A DNA stretch of 20,308 nt, from positions 1 to 20,308 of IMG/VR virus record IMGVR_UViG_3300010885_050633. One strand, given 5' to 3'. The notes under the pieces are model-generated. The model was not told the origin of the DNA. It saw only the letters and a list, made by a program, of their open reading frames with translations, and did no database searches. The position numbers were made by a program, and so were the translations under genes. This stretch comes from a virus. The stretch's first letter is position 1, and each line of letters opens with the position of its first letter. Positions 8,225 to 13,774 of the stretch are shown one piece after another.

Positions 8225-9181
8225 TTAGGTTCCACGATTGAAAAATGCGTTGACCTGTTGAGCTGTCTCAGCAGCCGCGGCCAGCGAGCCGGAACGCGTT
8301 GCGCCGGGACTCGTTGCAACTATGCGGAGAGGAGTCCAGTCGGCTTTTCTGTAAATTTGATTGATGATTAACACCGACGGCCGTTGAATCAACAAGCCGT
8401 GGCCATCGTCCACGGTGCGGTAAACCACCCACGGGTACTCCCACCCTTCCTTGCGTGCGGTCGGCAACGCTTTCACGTAGTACGCGTCGTCGTTTGGGCG
8501 AGCTTCGAAATCAAACGTCACCGTCACGTAGGGTTGGTCGCCGCTCCACTGAGCTCGAGCACCGAGGAAAAGCGCCTCGCCAGGAGAAAACGCGCGAAAC
8601 GTGTTCTGGTTGACGGTTCCAGTCGCGGTGTAAACAGCTTGAACAAAATCGTATGAGACGCCGACACTCGACGGCATGATCCAAGTCTCGGAATACTTCA
8701 TTGCCGGAACGACTTTGTCGATGCCGGCAACATTTGTGCCTTGAACATTGATGGCACCGCCGAAATCATCGGAGCCGTCTCCACCAATGATTCGCTCGGC
8801 AAGAGCGTTGCTGATGTGTTCCGTTGCGCCGGTTGTGTCCCACGCGATTGACCCCGGCACGAACTGCCGGGTGTCCTCCGGCTGCTGCTGCTGACCGTCA
8901 CCGCCGAGATTCGGAATGAGCGTCGTGTATTCGCCGGTAACCTCGAAACACTGCTTGCCGATGCTCTTGATCGACATGCTCTTTCGCCGCCAATACCCGG
9001 CCGCCGACTGCCAGTAACGCGGCAGGTATTCGCCGATCTCATCCTTGACCTGGGCCATGCCGTCTGGGCATTGGCCGATCAGGTATTTCTTGGTGACGTT
9101 CCACACCTCTCCGGCTTCGAGGTTCTCGTTCTCGACGCTGCCGCTCTCAGAGTCACGCATCTCGTAGACGACGATGGTCAT
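8225..9181 (-). CDS. putative tail-tip/baseplate protein following the tape measure
   Basis: A 318-residue protein coupled to the tape measure by an ATGA overlap, the position where siphoviruses encode distal-tail or hub proteins. The N-terminal part is acidic (MRDSESGSVENENLEAGE). A mid-section carries Gly/Gln linkers (GGDGQQQQPED), and the second half is strand-rich with many aromatics (WSGDQPYVTVTFDFEARPND, EGWEYPWVVYRTVDDG). The end is a short Ala-rich helix. I do not recognise the family; the tail-tip assignment is positional. Candidate roles are distal tail protein or an adaptor for the next two proteins. It ends immediately before the ATG of the next gene (TAA then ATG). Confidence 0.6.
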   Translation of the reverse strand: MTIVVYEMRDSESGSVENENLEAGEVWNVTKKYLIGQCPDGMAQVKDEIGEYLPRYWQSAAGYWRRKSMSIKSIGKQCFEVTGEYTTLIPNLGGDGQQQQPEDTRQFVPGSIAWDTTGATEHISNALAERIIGGDGSDDFGGAINVQGTNVAGIDKVVPAMKYSETWIMPSSVGVSYDFVQAVYTATGTVNQNTFRAFSPGEALFLGARAQWSGDQPYVTVTFDFEARPNDDAYYVKALPTARKEGWEYPWVVYRTVDDGHGLLIQRPSVLIINQIYRKADWTPLRIVATSPGATRSGSLAAAAETAQQVNAFFNRGT

Positions 9182-11955
9182 TGAAACACCGCTTCGGTTC
9201 TGGGTTTCGCCGCGATCCCGGTCAGAACGCCGAGAATGGATCGCGACACGTTTGTGCCCTCTCTGACGGCCTCCACGATGTCGCTGCCGATCTTCCGGAA
9301 ATCAATTCCGGTTCCAGAGTTGGCCATCGCCGTCTGCGTGCCCTGGGCGGCAACTGCTTGCACCTCGGGAGCTCGAGGTGCCACGGTGTCGATTGCAATG
9401 GCTGGGGGGGCGGCCAGCTGCGGCGTCGGCCCGAATTTGCCGGAGGCACTCATCGCGAGCAGCTGCTCTGCGGTGACGTTTGGATCGGCGGCCGCCAAGG
9501 CCACGGCGTCCAGTGCGGCTTGAAACTCGCCGGGCTGTGGTTGTTCACCCGGTTGCGGCGCCAAAGGTTGTGCTGGCGGTTGCGGCTGCAACAGTTCTCC
9601 ACCGGCAACGTTTTGAGCGGTTATGCTGGTTTGCTTAAACGCGTCGAACGCGGCCAGGTCAGACTGCACTTGAGTCAGTTCCGCAACTTTGCTCTGCAAT
9701 TGCTCTTGGGCTTGTTTGCCGCTTTTAAAGTTCAGATCAGCTATTTCCGACTGCAGTGCAGACTGTCGGTCGGTCAGCTTCGACCGTTTGCCATCCACTT
9801 CCTTGCTGACGTCCTTTCCGCGCTCCGCCAGTCGCTTCGTAGCTTCCGCAGTAGCTTCCGTTGCGGCCGCCGTCCGCTCGGCAGGATCGGAAAGTTTTCC
9901 AAGCTCCGGCCCGATATCCAGCCCGACGCCGCTCCAGTTTCCGGCGGAACTGATTCCCTTGTCTTTCTCTGCCTTCGTCTCGTCCTGCGGCATGAACGCC
10001 CCGGGCGGTGCCGCGGGCAGCTTCGGCTTGATCGGCTGGCCGCGTCTTGTCGGCTCTTCGGCCGGTTTTGTCTGCCCCTCGCCGCGTGCACGCTTTTTGG
10101 CCCGCTCGTCATCCTCCCTCAACGCCCGGATCGTGTCGGCGAACCCCTTGTCGCGGGCATCGACAGCGGCCTGCCGCTCGGCCGCGTTTTGCTCTCTTTG
10201 TTTCTTCCGTTCTGCCGCTCTGGCGTCTTGGTCGGGAGTGCGCTGCCGAGCTTTTTCGACCTCATCATCAACTCGTTTCAACGCTCGCGACAAACCGTTA
10301 ATCGCGAAATCCCAGTCGAACGCCGCGCGGAAATACAACCCGAGCTTCTCAAACCCGGACTGCAGCGTAAGGATGTCTTCGCCGAAGACACCCATGAACC
10401 GATCGATGCCCTCGATCAGCATGTCGCCAATAAACTGCGACGCGGCGGACACCGTGTTCAACACAAAGTCGAACCCTTGCGCGAACTTCTGATGCATCTG
10501 CACCAGGGCGATGGCGAGATTGGTGTTCATCACCTGCCACGCGGCACCAAAGTCGAGCCGCATGAGCGCCGCCATGATCGCGTCCGTTTCTTCGCGAAAC
10601 GCCGGCGACAGCGTGCGAGCGATGACAACGCCGCCAGCGATCGCCGCCCCGACGCCGGCAACGGCCAGCCCGATTGGCGCGAACAGGGCAGGGATCAGGG
10701 GCAGGATGGATTGGACAACGCGAATCCCTGTTGCCAGCCCTTGAATTGCGATTCCAGCGGCGATCGCCGCCACGCCCAGGCCGAACAGGGCGGCCGTCCC
10801 GCCGGCCACCACGGCCACGAGCGTGCCGTTCCTGCTGATGAATTCGCCGAGAACCTTGAGTAGGTTTGTGAACGCTTGAACGGCCTGCGTGGCGATTGGC
10901 CCCATCGAATCAATCAGCTGAATTTTGAGAACGCCGAATTGCGCGCCCAGTTGGGCAACCGCACCGCCGAATGAGCTCATCACGGACGTCGCTTTGCCGA
11001 TCGCAGTGCCGCCGGAGTTTTGGATGGTATTCAGCACCTCGTCGAATTTGTCACGCATGGTCGACAACGAAAGTGCCGCGTTGGCGCCGCGAATCTCAAA
11101 GATGTCGGTGAACAACCGAATCTTGTCGACGTTGCTCATGTTGGCCGTTTGTTTGCCCAAGTCCTGGAGCACATCGATGAACGGTCGCATCGATCCGGCT
11201 GCATCGCGCGTACTGACACCGAGCGCCGCCAGCTTGCCTTCCTCGTTGGCGATCGACTCAATCACTCGCGCCAACCCGGTGCCGCCGAGAGATCCACGAA
11301 GACCCGCATCAGCGAGCGTGGCAATTGCGGCCGAAACATCGTCAAACGATTGACCGGCTTCTTGAGCTTTCGGCCCGACGAACGAAAGAGCTTCGCCGAT
11401 CGAATCGACGCTGGTCGTCGACGCGTTGGCGGTGGCCTGCAGCTTGTCGGCGATCGTTCCGAAGTCGTTGGTCGTCATGCCGAACTGCGCCATCGTGCTG
11501 ACTGCGACCTCGACCGCCCTGGCGAGATCCATGTTGTCGGCGGCAGCCACCGCGAGGATTGGCGAGATTGATTTCATCACGCCCTCTGCGTCCAGACCGG
11601 CCTTCGCGAGATCGCTCATTGCGCCGGCAACTTCCTCAGGAGCGCGGCCAAACTGGACGGCAAATCGTTTTGCTGATTCATTCAACCTGGCGAACTGCTG
11701 ATCGGTCGCGCCGGTATTCGCTTGCACCCGCGCCATCTCGAGCGAAAACGCTGCCGCGGTCCTGGCGGCCATTACAAACGGCACACCGAGCGCAGCCCCT
11801 CCGAGCGTCATGGCTGTACCGGCCTGACGCAGCTGCGTGCCCAGCGTCATCAGCCTGGCTCGAATACGGCTCATTCCCTGCTGGAACTGCCCATCGCGGG
11901 CAAAAATCTCGACATACGCCGAGCCCGCCCGAATCGCCCCTGAGCTAGCCGCCAT
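9178..11955 (-). CDS. phage tail tape measure protein (TP901/PhageMin_Tail-like)
   Basis: At 925 residues this is the longest gene of the window. The N-terminal third has the usual tape-measure core: FSLEMARVQANTGATDQQFARL, EVAGAMSDLAKAGLDA, STMAQFGMTTNDF, IATLADAGLRGSLGGTGLARV and RGANAALSLSTM. Residues about 375-450 contain strongly hydrophobic Ala/Gly/Val/Ile segments, likely membrane-spanning on DNA ejection. Residues about 560-620 are a highly charged Ala/Glu/Arg/Lys coiled coil, followed by a Pro/Gln-rich region. The protein sets tail length; the usual rule of about 0.15 nm per residue suggests a tail near 140 nm (inference). GGAGG lies upstream of the ATG, inside the T-frame end. Its stop overlaps the next gene as ATGA. 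No peptidase or lysozyme domain was recognised. Confidence 0.93.
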   Translation of the reverse strand: MAASSGAIRAGSAYVEIFARDGQFQQGMSRIRARLMTLGTQLRQAGTAMTLGGAALGVPFVMAARTAAAFSLEMARVQANTGATDQQFARLNESAKRFAVQFGRAPEEVAGAMSDLAKAGLDAEGVMKSISPILAVAAADNMDLARAVEVAVSTMAQFGMTTNDFGTIADKLQATANASTTSVDSIGEALSFVGPKAQEAGQSFDDVSAAIATLADAGLRGSLGGTGLARVIESIANEEGKLAALGVSTRDAAGSMRPFIDVLQDLGKQTANMSNVDKIRLFTDIFEIRGANAALSLSTMRDKFDEVLNTIQNSGGTAIGKATSVMSSFGGAVAQLGAQFGVLKIQLIDSMGPIATQAVQAFTNLLKVLGEFISRNGTLVAVVAGGTAALFGLGVAAIAAGIAIQGLATGIRVVQSILPLIPALFAPIGLAVAGVGAAIAGGVVIARTLSPAFREETDAIMAALMRLDFGAAWQVMNTNLAIALVQMHQKFAQGFDFVLNTVSAASQFIGDMLIEGIDRFMGVFGEDILTLQSGFEKLGLYFRAAFDWDFAINGLSRALKRVDDEVEKARQRTPDQDARAAERKKQREQNAAERQAAVDARDKGFADTIRALREDDERAKKRARGEGQTKPAEEPTRRGQPIKPKLPAAPPGAFMPQDETKAEKDKGISSAGNWSGVGLDIGPELGKLSDPAERTAAATEATAEATKRLAERGKDVSKEVDGKRSKLTDRQSALQSEIADLNFKSGKQAQEQLQSKVAELTQVQSDLAAFDAFKQTSITAQNVAGGELLQPQPPAQPLAPQPGEQPQPGEFQAALDAVALAAADPNVTAEQLLAMSASGKFGPTPQLAAPPAIAIDTVAPRAPEVQAVAAQGTQTAMANSGTGIDFRKIGSDIVEAVREGTNVSRSILGVLTGIAAKPRTEAVFQ

Positions 11956-12681
11956 CGCTCACCTCCGGCTGCTCTATGGGGCGGAATCCAAACGCCATGA
12001 GAATGTCTGGCGTGGCCTCCATCGGCCGCGGTTTAGGAACCTTGTAGAACGGATGGAAGTGGTACATCGATGGCGCCGGCTCGCCGCTTTCGTCGTTGTG
12101 ATGGATCTGCGCCCACAGCGACATCAACGTCGCCGTGTGCGTCCAGTTTTCGTGCTGACGGCCGTCGGCGAGCCAGACGAGCTCGCGAAGGGTGAAACTC
12201 CAGGGCTCGACTCCGACGATTCCTGCGAGGTGGAATCCGAGTTCCCAAGCGTCCTCAGGGTTTCCTCGAAGTCGCACGATTCCAGCGCTTTCTCGACCGC
12301 CGTCCTGGCGGCTTGCTCCATCTTCGTCTCCGTCTCCCGCAGCTTCGCGATCACTCTCTTGACCAGCCCCCGTCGGGGCTCTTGGAAAAAATCGGATACC
12401 TGATCGACAAGCCGCTCGACGGCTTCCCTTAGCACCGCCCCGTCGCAGACGGCGAAGAAGTCGTCGTCCGACATATCAATCGCAGCCAGCTGCGGCCGCA
12501 CGACCGCACAGATCACCTCGAGCACCTTGAGGTCGTCGGCCACCCAGCCCGACAACGACTCTTTGTCGAGGTTGCAGATGTCGAGCACGTTGACGCCGCA
12601 GAGATCGCGTACGCGCTTGACCGTCAGATAGGTGACCTCGATCACCCAGGTTTTGCCGTCGAGAGTCTTAATTTTGGGCAT
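11945..12681 (-). CDS. tail assembly chaperone G-T fusion made by -1 ribosomal frameshift
   Basis: If ribosomes slip at 12385-12391, the product has the first 99 residues of G followed by 146 residues in the -1 frame, 245 in all. The first part after the slip is a Gly/Asp/Ala-rich linker. The last ~100 residues form a folded-looking domain: RLRGNPEDAWELGFHLAGIVG, EPWSFTLRELVWLADGR and LMSLWAQIHH. That pattern resembles the T domain of siphovirus chaperones, which contacts the tape measure and tube. The -1 relation was checked: codon first bases are 0 mod 3 in G and 1 mod 3 in T on this strand. The T frame could start on its own only at a GTG at 12277, which has no ribosome binding site. T ends 11 bases inside the tape-measure gene. 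Confidence 0.75.
12124..12681 (-). CDS. tail assembly chaperone, G-type (zero-frame product)
   Basis: A 185-residue, mostly helical protein placed directly before the tape measure, as in lambda-like tail operons. It begins MPKIKTLDGKTWVIEVTYLTVKRVRDLCGV and has a conserved-looking core up to about residue 99 (VERLVDQVSDFF). A charged helix follows, then a Ser/Thr-rich tail ending in GRTRRR. G-type chaperones coat the tape measure before tube polymerisation. At codons 98-99 (TTT TTC) lies a slippery heptamer, and the -1 frame is open from 12475 to 11945, which fits production of a G-T fusion. The ATG lies within the end of the preceding gene (14-base overlap), with no strong ribosome binding site. 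The chaperone assignment rests mainly on position, size and the frameshift arrangement. Confidence 0.75.
   Translation of the reverse strand: MPKIKTLDGKTWVIEVTYLTVKRVRDLCGVNVLDICNLDKESLSGWVADDLKVLEVICAVVRPQLAAIDMSDDDFFAVCDGAVLREAVERLVDQVSDFFQEPRRGLVKRVIAKLRETETKMEQAARTAVEKALESCDFEETLRTLGNSDSTSQESSESSPGVSPFASSSGSPTAVSTKTGRTRRR
12365..12380 (-). other. hairpin 3' of the frameshift site (likely stimulator)
   Basis: The minus strand reads AGCCCC, a GACG loop, then GGGGCT: a perfect 6-bp GC-rich stem beginning four bases after the slippery heptamer. There is no U-tract after it and it lies inside a coding region, so it is not a terminator. The spacing is slightly short for a frameshift stimulator but workable. 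Confidence 0.6.
12385..12391 (-). promoter_or_regulatory. -1 programmed frameshift slippery site T_TTT_TTC
   Basis: The minus strand reads TTTTTTC, positioned in the G frame as T TTT TTC (codons 98-99), the X_XXY_YYZ arrangement required for tandem -1 slippage. Use of TTT for Phe in this GC-rich gene is itself suggestive. It lies within the region where the -1 frame is open. Confidence 0.75.
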
Positions 12682-13048
12682 TGGCGTAAGGCCAGAGTTT
12701 CAGGACGACTTCATAGGACAGCACGCCGGTAAGCGGGAAATTCCACTTGATCCCGTAGACGCAAAACGACGCCGACGTTGACGACGACGAATCGCCGATG
12801 GTGATGCTGATCGGGTTGGGCGGGAACGCATTCCAATGATTCAAAAACACCGCCAGGTCTTCCGAGTGGTAGACCTCGAGCGTCAGCACGGTCATCTCGG
12901 TCAGCGTGAGCTCGCCGCGAACGGACGAATCCCACGGCGTGACATCGGCGGTGTCTAAATCGACGTTGATGTCGAAATCTCGCGTCCCGAGCAGCGCAAC
13001 GCCGTTTACGCTGATCGACTGCGTTCTGGCCAGCCGCACACGTGGCAC
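12668..13048 (-). CDS. tail-tube-like protein 3
   Basis: A 126-residue protein starting at GTG with GAGGTGA four bases upstream. It keeps the pattern of the two upstream genes: a short basic start, SISVNGVALLG, then DFDINVDLDTADVTPWDSS, where ADVT matches the VDAT and VDIT turns. It has diverged more, with a W/F-rich C-terminal half (HWNAFPPNPISITIG, GIKWNFPLTG, LKLWPYA). Its function is probably structural in the tail shaft; its greater divergence could indicate a specialised end ring. The last 14 bases overlap the start of the chaperone gene. The paralogy call comes from eye alignment. Confidence 0.55.
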   Translation of the reverse strand: MPRVRLARTQSISVNGVALLGTRDFDINVDLDTADVTPWDSSVRGELTLTEMTVLTLEVYHSEDLAVFLNHWNAFPPNPISITIGDSSSSTSASFCVYGIKWNFPLTGVLSYEVVLKLWPYANAQN

Positions 13049-13060
13049 GCGTCACCTCGC

Positions 13061-13393
13061 TCAGGAGGCGCTCGGAGCCGGTGCGTAGGTGATGGTGTAC
13101 TCGTGACGACCCTTGGGAGTCACCTTGTTTTTCACGTCGAGCACAACGCAGCCGACGCCGGTCATGCCGCCGACGATGACGCTTCCCGTCTGACCGACAC
13201 TCGCCGAATGGTTGGTGGCCGTGATCTCGACCGTCACATCGAGCAGGCCGCAGCCGATCTGCTTTTCGGTGTCACCGAAAACAGTGATGTCGACCTCGTC
13301 GCCACTGGCGTTCAGGTCGACGTCGACAACGTCGGCCAACACCACGCCCGGCGCAGTCACCAGGGCGTTCTTCCCCAACTTGTAGCGAGCCAT
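13061..13393 (-). CDS. tail-tube-like protein 2
   Basis: A 110-residue beta-rich protein starting MARYKLGKNALVT and carrying DVVDVDLNASGDEVDIT at the position matching the equivalent strand and turn of the preceding gene. Later strands (LLDVTVEITATNHSASVG, HEYTITYAPAP) complete a small sandwich. The shared LGKN and VDxT signatures suggest tandem duplication. It would be part of the tail shaft, either as a second tube subunit or as a minor ring protein. A GGGGGAT purine stretch precedes the ATG by a few bases, and an 18-base gap separates it from the gene before. Confidence 0.6.
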   Translation of the reverse strand: MARYKLGKNALVTAPGVVLADVVDVDLNASGDEVDITVFGDTEKQIGCGLLDVTVEITATNHSASVGQTGSVIVGGMTGVGCVVLDVKNKVTPKGRHEYTITYAPAPSAS

Positions 13394-13411
13394 GCATCCC
13401 CCGCGAGGTTG

Positions 13412-13774
13412 TTAGACGTTGACCTGATCCGAAACATCGAGCGCGATGCCAGGCTTGATCGTGATCGAAACGGCTTCCGCGCCGCCGATCGGCTGCGTGC
13501 GCTTGGCCGACGTGATCACGCCGGTGATCGAAAATCCGGTCGTGCCGGTCGCCGTGACGTTGACTGCCACTTCCTTGCCGTAGGTCTGCACGCTGTCGCC
13601 GAGCACCGTTGCCTCGAGCATGCGCGACTGCAGGCCGGCGATCGTTCGTTTGTAGACGCCGGTCGCGCCCCTGGTCGTGGCATCGACCTTTTCGGTCTCG
13701 ATGGTCATCGAGACGTCCTGCACGCCGGTCAGACCGGTGATCGTGGTGTTTTTGCCCAGCAGAATCGTGGCCAT
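13412..13774 (-). CDS. tail-tube-like protein 1 (beta-sandwich, paralogue of the next two)
   Basis: A 120-residue, strand-rich protein that is the first gene after the promoter-like motif. It begins MATILLGKNTTITG, then DVSMTIETEKVDATT, and continues in alternating strands (VAVNVTATGTTGFSITGV). The size, fold pattern and place just before the chaperone and tape-measure genes fit a major tail tube or tail-tube-like protein. The N-terminal LGKN and the (V/A)D-x-T turn recur in the next one or two genes, so the three appear to be paralogues. The ATG has CGGAG seven bases upstream. Being first behind the motif, this may be the most highly expressed of the three. Which of them forms the actual tube cannot be decided here. 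Confidence 0.62.
   Translation of the reverse strand: MATILLGKNTTITGLTGVQDVSMTIETEKVDATTRGATGVYKRTIAGLQSRMLEATVLGDSVQTYGKEVAVNVTATGTTGFSITGVITSAKRTQPIGGAEAVSITIKPGIALDVSDQVNV

Follow-up and report, generated by a model that had tools for sequence, protein, structure and literature searches.

Organization of the G-T region

The window, the whole 20,308-nucleotide stretch of DNA analysed here, is a 20.3-kb IMG/VR virus record that shows a siphophage-like tail module on the minus strand, with the gene order tail proteins, G, T and tape measure. Two overlapping open reading frames (ORFs), G and T, sit between the tail tube and tape measure genes, the assignment of the tail tube being weak. The region contains the following features:

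12668..13774, minus strand: three small ORFs upstream of G (13774-13412, 13393-13061 and 13048-12668)
12124..12681, minus strand: G-type frame, ATG at 12681, stop ending at 12124; 185 aa
12385..12391, minus strand: slippery heptamer T_TTT_TTC, in the G frame D97(GAT)-F98(TTT)-F99(TTC)
12381..12384, minus strand: spacer CAAG, 4 nt, between heptamer and stem
12365..12380, minus strand: stem-loop AGCCCC-GACG-GGGGCT, arms 12380-12375 / 12370-12365; 6 bp
11945..12385, minus strand: T part in the -1 frame after the slip, 146 aa; Gly/Asp/Glu-rich linker of ~40 aa, then T core (AGIVGVEPW...LREL)
12233..12384, minus strand: first part of the overlap, mainly conserved as G (C-terminal helices 103-146), from codon-phase variability and AlphaFold2, boundary approximate; read in the -1 frame it is the linker
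12124..12232, minus strand: last part of the overlap, mainly conserved as T core, from codon-phase variability, boundary approximate; read in frame 0 it is a Ser-rich G tail
9178..11955, minus strand: tape measure protein (PF10145, E 4.9e-37), whose start overlaps the end of T

One of the three small ORFs upstream of G is weakly similar to a major tail protein (phrog_10528, E 0.0014); the first two both start with LGKN and may be duplicated tail tube proteins. Elsewhere in the window, 19456-18419 and 18405-17725 encode collagen-like proteins with Gly-Pro-Thr repeats, probably fibres, the first of them matching PF01391. Three ORFs lie between the neck-like and the collagen-like genes (17718-15048): one encodes a methyltransferase (PF13578) and the other two matched no Pfam family. 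The ORF 4629-3832 shows a C-terminal dATP/dGTP diphosphohydrolase N-type domain (PF18909, E 2.8e-19), and its N-terminal half has no match.

The first-pass annotation of this DNA had proposed a programmed -1 frameshift in a tail chaperone pair, and a direct check of the sequence found all its coordinates right. The G and T frames overlap in the -1 relation, the heptamer at 12385-12391 lies in the zero frame and spans D97-F98-F99, the 6-bp GC-rich stem begins four bases further on, and the -1 frame is open from 12475 to 11945. In this frame F99 is followed by CCA (P), and the fusion through F99-P has 99+146 = 245 aa, the size that had been estimated (~245 residues). G continues for 86 residues after F99, which gives the annotated 87 codons when the stop is counted.

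According to AlphaFold2, G is folded and helical in residues 1-146, with pLDDT below 50 from residue 146 and a Ser-rich tail predicted to be disordered (146-185). T is predicted to be disordered in residues 5-40 and helical after them, so that the Gly/Asp-rich stretch originally read as a linker corresponds to the Gly/Asp/Glu-rich segment that precedes the helical T core. No credible Pfam or PHROG match was obtained for G and T, and none in Pfam for the relatives of both; DUF7553 and Spo0A_C scored below their own cut-offs, lay on long helices and were discarded. A tblastn search of INPHARED with G and T found no phage protein, profile comparison with lambda G and T showed no similarity, and Foldseek gave nothing significant for G against PDB or T against BFVD, the match to N15 GT having an E-value of 9.8, i.e. 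noise. Known G/T-type chaperone pairs share little sequence (PMC5009743), therefore sequence homology, which was not found here, is dispensable for recognizing such a pair.

Conservation of the slip site and the stem-loop

Scans of IMG/VR using T and G gave 27 close loci, and the resulting clade contains 21 distinct sequences, window included. In these, G shows 86-87 residues after the heptamer and T shows 144-146. Profile A1 found no relatives among genome contigs. Profile A4, made from distant T sequences, gave matches at 385 loci in IMG/VR (80 of them retained) and at 10 in GTDB; counts for the wider family rest on 79 distinct G/T pairs. Nine of the 10 GTDB loci belong to Planctomycetota MAGs (Pirellulaceae, Thermoguttaceae, Phycisphaerae and others) and one is labelled Nevskiales, and the hosts of these phages are probably Planctomycetota. 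Relatives within Planctomycetota MAG contigs (L103-L112) point to phages or prophages that are widespread in that phylum and whose G and T have no match in the INPHARED phage collection. Judged from these searches, the protein families and the probable hosts appear new to the databases searched.

T_TTT_TTC occurs twice in the window, against 1.45 expected. The heptamer alone proves little in a single sequence, and its significance comes from conservation in relatives. The sequence GATTTTTTCC is at the same codon in 21 of 21 distinct close relatives, the heptamer being invariant in the alignment. Among the 79 distinct pairs, the heptamer at the slip codon is T_TTT_TTC in 51, G_GGT_TTT in nine, A_AAT_TTT in three and G_GAT_TTT, a shift site known from pea enation mosaic virus (PMC5009743), in three. 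Homologues that keep the overlap and lack the heptamer had been named in advance as evidence against a frameshift: none is found among the near relatives, but 13 of the 79 pairs across the wider family keep the overlap without a canonical or G_GAT_TTT heptamer at the usual codon. Nearly all of these 13 retain a TTT/TTC-type site at the same codon; seven were assigned to the TTTTTCC type (mostly TCT_TTT_TCC or close to it), and six of the 79 (L029, L035, L097, L146, L165 and L189) show no listed heptamer at the usual codon. The overlap and the frame relation are kept without a tandem heptamer in L146, L165 and L189 (TCT_TTC_TGC) and in L097 (A_AAT_CTT). In 10 distinct sequences of the wider family, a stop closes the -1 frame directly before the heptamer, and therefore T can be entered only at the heptamer or later.

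Across the wider family, the slip site is located ~91-108 codons after the G start, and the median distance from the slip to the G stop is 68 codons. The layout is lambda-like at L035:4986-5034, on the contig that also carries L102: this distant relative shares the T core but has no linker, and its G_GGA_AAA lies ~11 codons short of the G stop. The same T core thus occurs with either layout, and the slip has changed place within the wider family.

The 5-bp core arms of the stem (AGCCC and GGGCT) are, like the heptamer, invariant in the 21 distinct clade members, which bears out the conservation of heptamer and stem that the first-pass annotation had proposed to look for in homologues. The sixth pair and the loop vary, and the sixth pair is lost in several members. 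No compensatory changes in the stem were seen within the clade, where the core arms do not vary. Compared with shuffled sequences, the window stem is modest (z about -1.5 to -1.9), and MFE z-scores over the family average only -1.1. A positional test on 35 divergent representatives took the best hairpin starting 3-9 nt after the site and compared it with those elsewhere in the same genes; the median rank was 0.10, i.e. the top 10% (KS p 2e-10, inflated by the kinship of the sequences). The hairpin sequences themselves differ, for example GCGAAGCG/CGCTTCGC in L031 and CGCAGAAGC/GCTTCTGCG in L168, and no special hairpin at the site was found by this test in L079, L081, L099 and L182. A stimulatory structure a few nucleotides downstream, by which -1 frameshift signals are recognized, is accordingly present and recurs in the family.

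Expression of T and selection on the overlap

No ATG, GTG or TTG is found in the T frame between the slip and the T core in 52 of 78 relatives, and the remainder are inconsistent. The window shows a GTG in the T frame (12277), ~17 codons before the T core and shared with 14 other distinct clade members, from which, or from a non-standard start, T could be made as a separate protein by translation coupled to that of G, the overlap being incidental. This is very improbable: the GTG of the window has no Shine-Dalgarno-like sequence, six of the 21 clade members lack the codon, GAGG is found upstream of it in a single member (L018), and 52 relatives have none of these start codons there. Nor does an own start explain the invariant heptamer, its slippery replacements or the stop that closes the -1 frame just before the slip site in 10 relatives. 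An independent start of T was the other result expected to speak against a frameshift, and no dependable one was found in the near relatives. The lack of an own start in the downstream ORF is one of the marks of a chaperone pair, and frameshifting is the only route to T common to the family.

Slippage of the RNA polymerase on the T run, by which a fraction of the mRNA would gain or lose one base and the fusion would arise by ordinary translation, is slightly less probable still. A six-T run is present, but six T is short for bacterial transcriptional slippage. Furthermore, relatives carry G_GGT_TTT, A_AAT_TTT or G_GAT_TTT at the same codon and in the same phase, which fits tandem tRNA slippage rather than slippage on a homopolymer. 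A sequencing error or a broken gene, for which no supporting point was found, can be practically dismissed, since the arrangement is common to 79 distinct sequences from many separate assemblies.

Codon-phase variability indicates which frame is under selection along the overlap. Upstream of the slip, the third positions of G vary most in the window clade (0.85 bits vs 0.30 and 0.14), and from about +135 until the G stop the third positions of T are the most variable (0.54-0.84 per 30-nt block), with partial constraint in both frames between the slip and about +135. The trend is similar in two other subfamilies: the pattern is G-type from the slip as far as the T core and T-type where only T is encoded, the change from one to the other being weak. 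Between the slip and the T core, the representatives (1,652 codons) contain no stops in the T frame, five in the G frame and 74 in the third frame. The G stop is 1-5 codons upstream of the T core in seven of the 79 pairs; most of the remaining family has it ~10 codons into the T core motif, and the window clade 33-34 codons into it. This later stop makes ~23 codons of the overlap a clade-specific tail, predicted to be disordered. These codon-phase and stop patterns show that the long overlap consists mostly of two successive coding regions, the first ~45 codons being selected as G and the last ~40 as T, in agreement with the AlphaFold2 models. The dual-coded overlap of the first-pass annotation stands as an arrangement of frames, and selection on it is mostly successive rather than simultaneous.

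Comparison with known chaperone pairs and proposed mechanism

A slip near the 3' end of G is not found here: 86 codons separate the slip from the G stop, compared with 2-10 in six phages. These distances are 5 codons in lambda, 6 in P2 and 10 in Paenibacillus phage Ley, and 2 in Streptococcus Javan414, 7 in Ruminococcus NatCom_38182 and 4 in Roseobacter RDJL Phi 2, the sites of the last three being heptamers picked in annotated genes and not annotated shifts. The overlap, annotated as longer than usual, is indeed longer than in lambda and P2, but Bacillus phage SPP1 also has an extended one. The pair gp17.5/gp17.5* of SPP1 has a putative -1 shift at UUUUUUC, with 112 of 173 aa shared and a long form of 297 aa (PMC6316719). 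In this published description, SPP1 shows the same heptamer, an interior slip ~61 codons before the stop (86 here) and a location just before the tape measure gene (PMC6316719). A slip near the 3' end of G is therefore usual and not defining, as SPP1 also departs from it. P2 gpE / E+E' has an annotated -1 shift at a six-T heptamer (T_TTT_TTG). In lambda, a -1 shift likewise joins the G part to the T part upstream of the tape measure gene, but at G_GGA_AAG, and no sequence similarity was detectable. Frameshifting of this class has long been known, and the interior slip, though uncommon, has a precedent in SPP1.

A downstream ORF in the -1 relation, with a conserved slippery heptamer in the overlap, is characteristic of chaperone pairs and is found here; the role of chaperone is assigned from gene order and by analogy with lambda, not from sequence homology. 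Taken together, the evidence supports the earlier interpretation, and a long-tailed phage very probably makes its tail assembly chaperones, G (185 aa) and G-T (245 aa), by a programmed -1 frameshift. Most ribosomes would stay in the G frame and make G. We infer that the stem-loop 4 nt downstream makes a minority pause while TTT and TTC occupy the P and A sites; these ribosomes would move back one base on T_TTT_TTC and so produce G-T, at a rate that would set the G:G-T ratio. G-T would consist of G residues 1-99, a flexible acidic/Gly linker of ~40 residues and the helical T domain. Lambda gpG is a binding partner of the tape measure protein, and lambda T of the tail tube protein (PMC5009743); by analogy, the G part would hold the tape measure protein and T would recruit tail-tube subunits. 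Because the slip is interior, G-T, unlike the lambda fusion, would lack the end of G, i.e. its C-terminal helices (about 103-146), whose coding sequence would become the linker. We give an even chance that G and G-T differ by a folded element in this way, the same DNA encoding helices in one protein and a flexible linker in the other.

On this reading, two protein families without a match to any Pfam or PHROG model would acquire a function. The phages that carry them have their nearest genome matches in Planctomycetota MAGs, and sequenced isolates include no close match. In a large family the slip is as a rule interior, a position that among the other phages compared here was seen only in SPP1. 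The training set of PRFect has a mean of 26 nt from slip to stop (PMC10885494), and predictors of this kind, built on short overlaps, would probably overlook such a slip; in annotation, T would be entered as a gene of its own with a wrong start. The slip sites of the family, together with the hairpins that go with them, form a natural collection on which slip-site strength could be tested directly. If the exchange of helices for linker is true, frameshifting in these phages swaps a helical segment for a linker plus recruiter instead of merely adding a tail, and some members, with TCT_TTC_TGC sites, make the same swap without a tandem heptamer.
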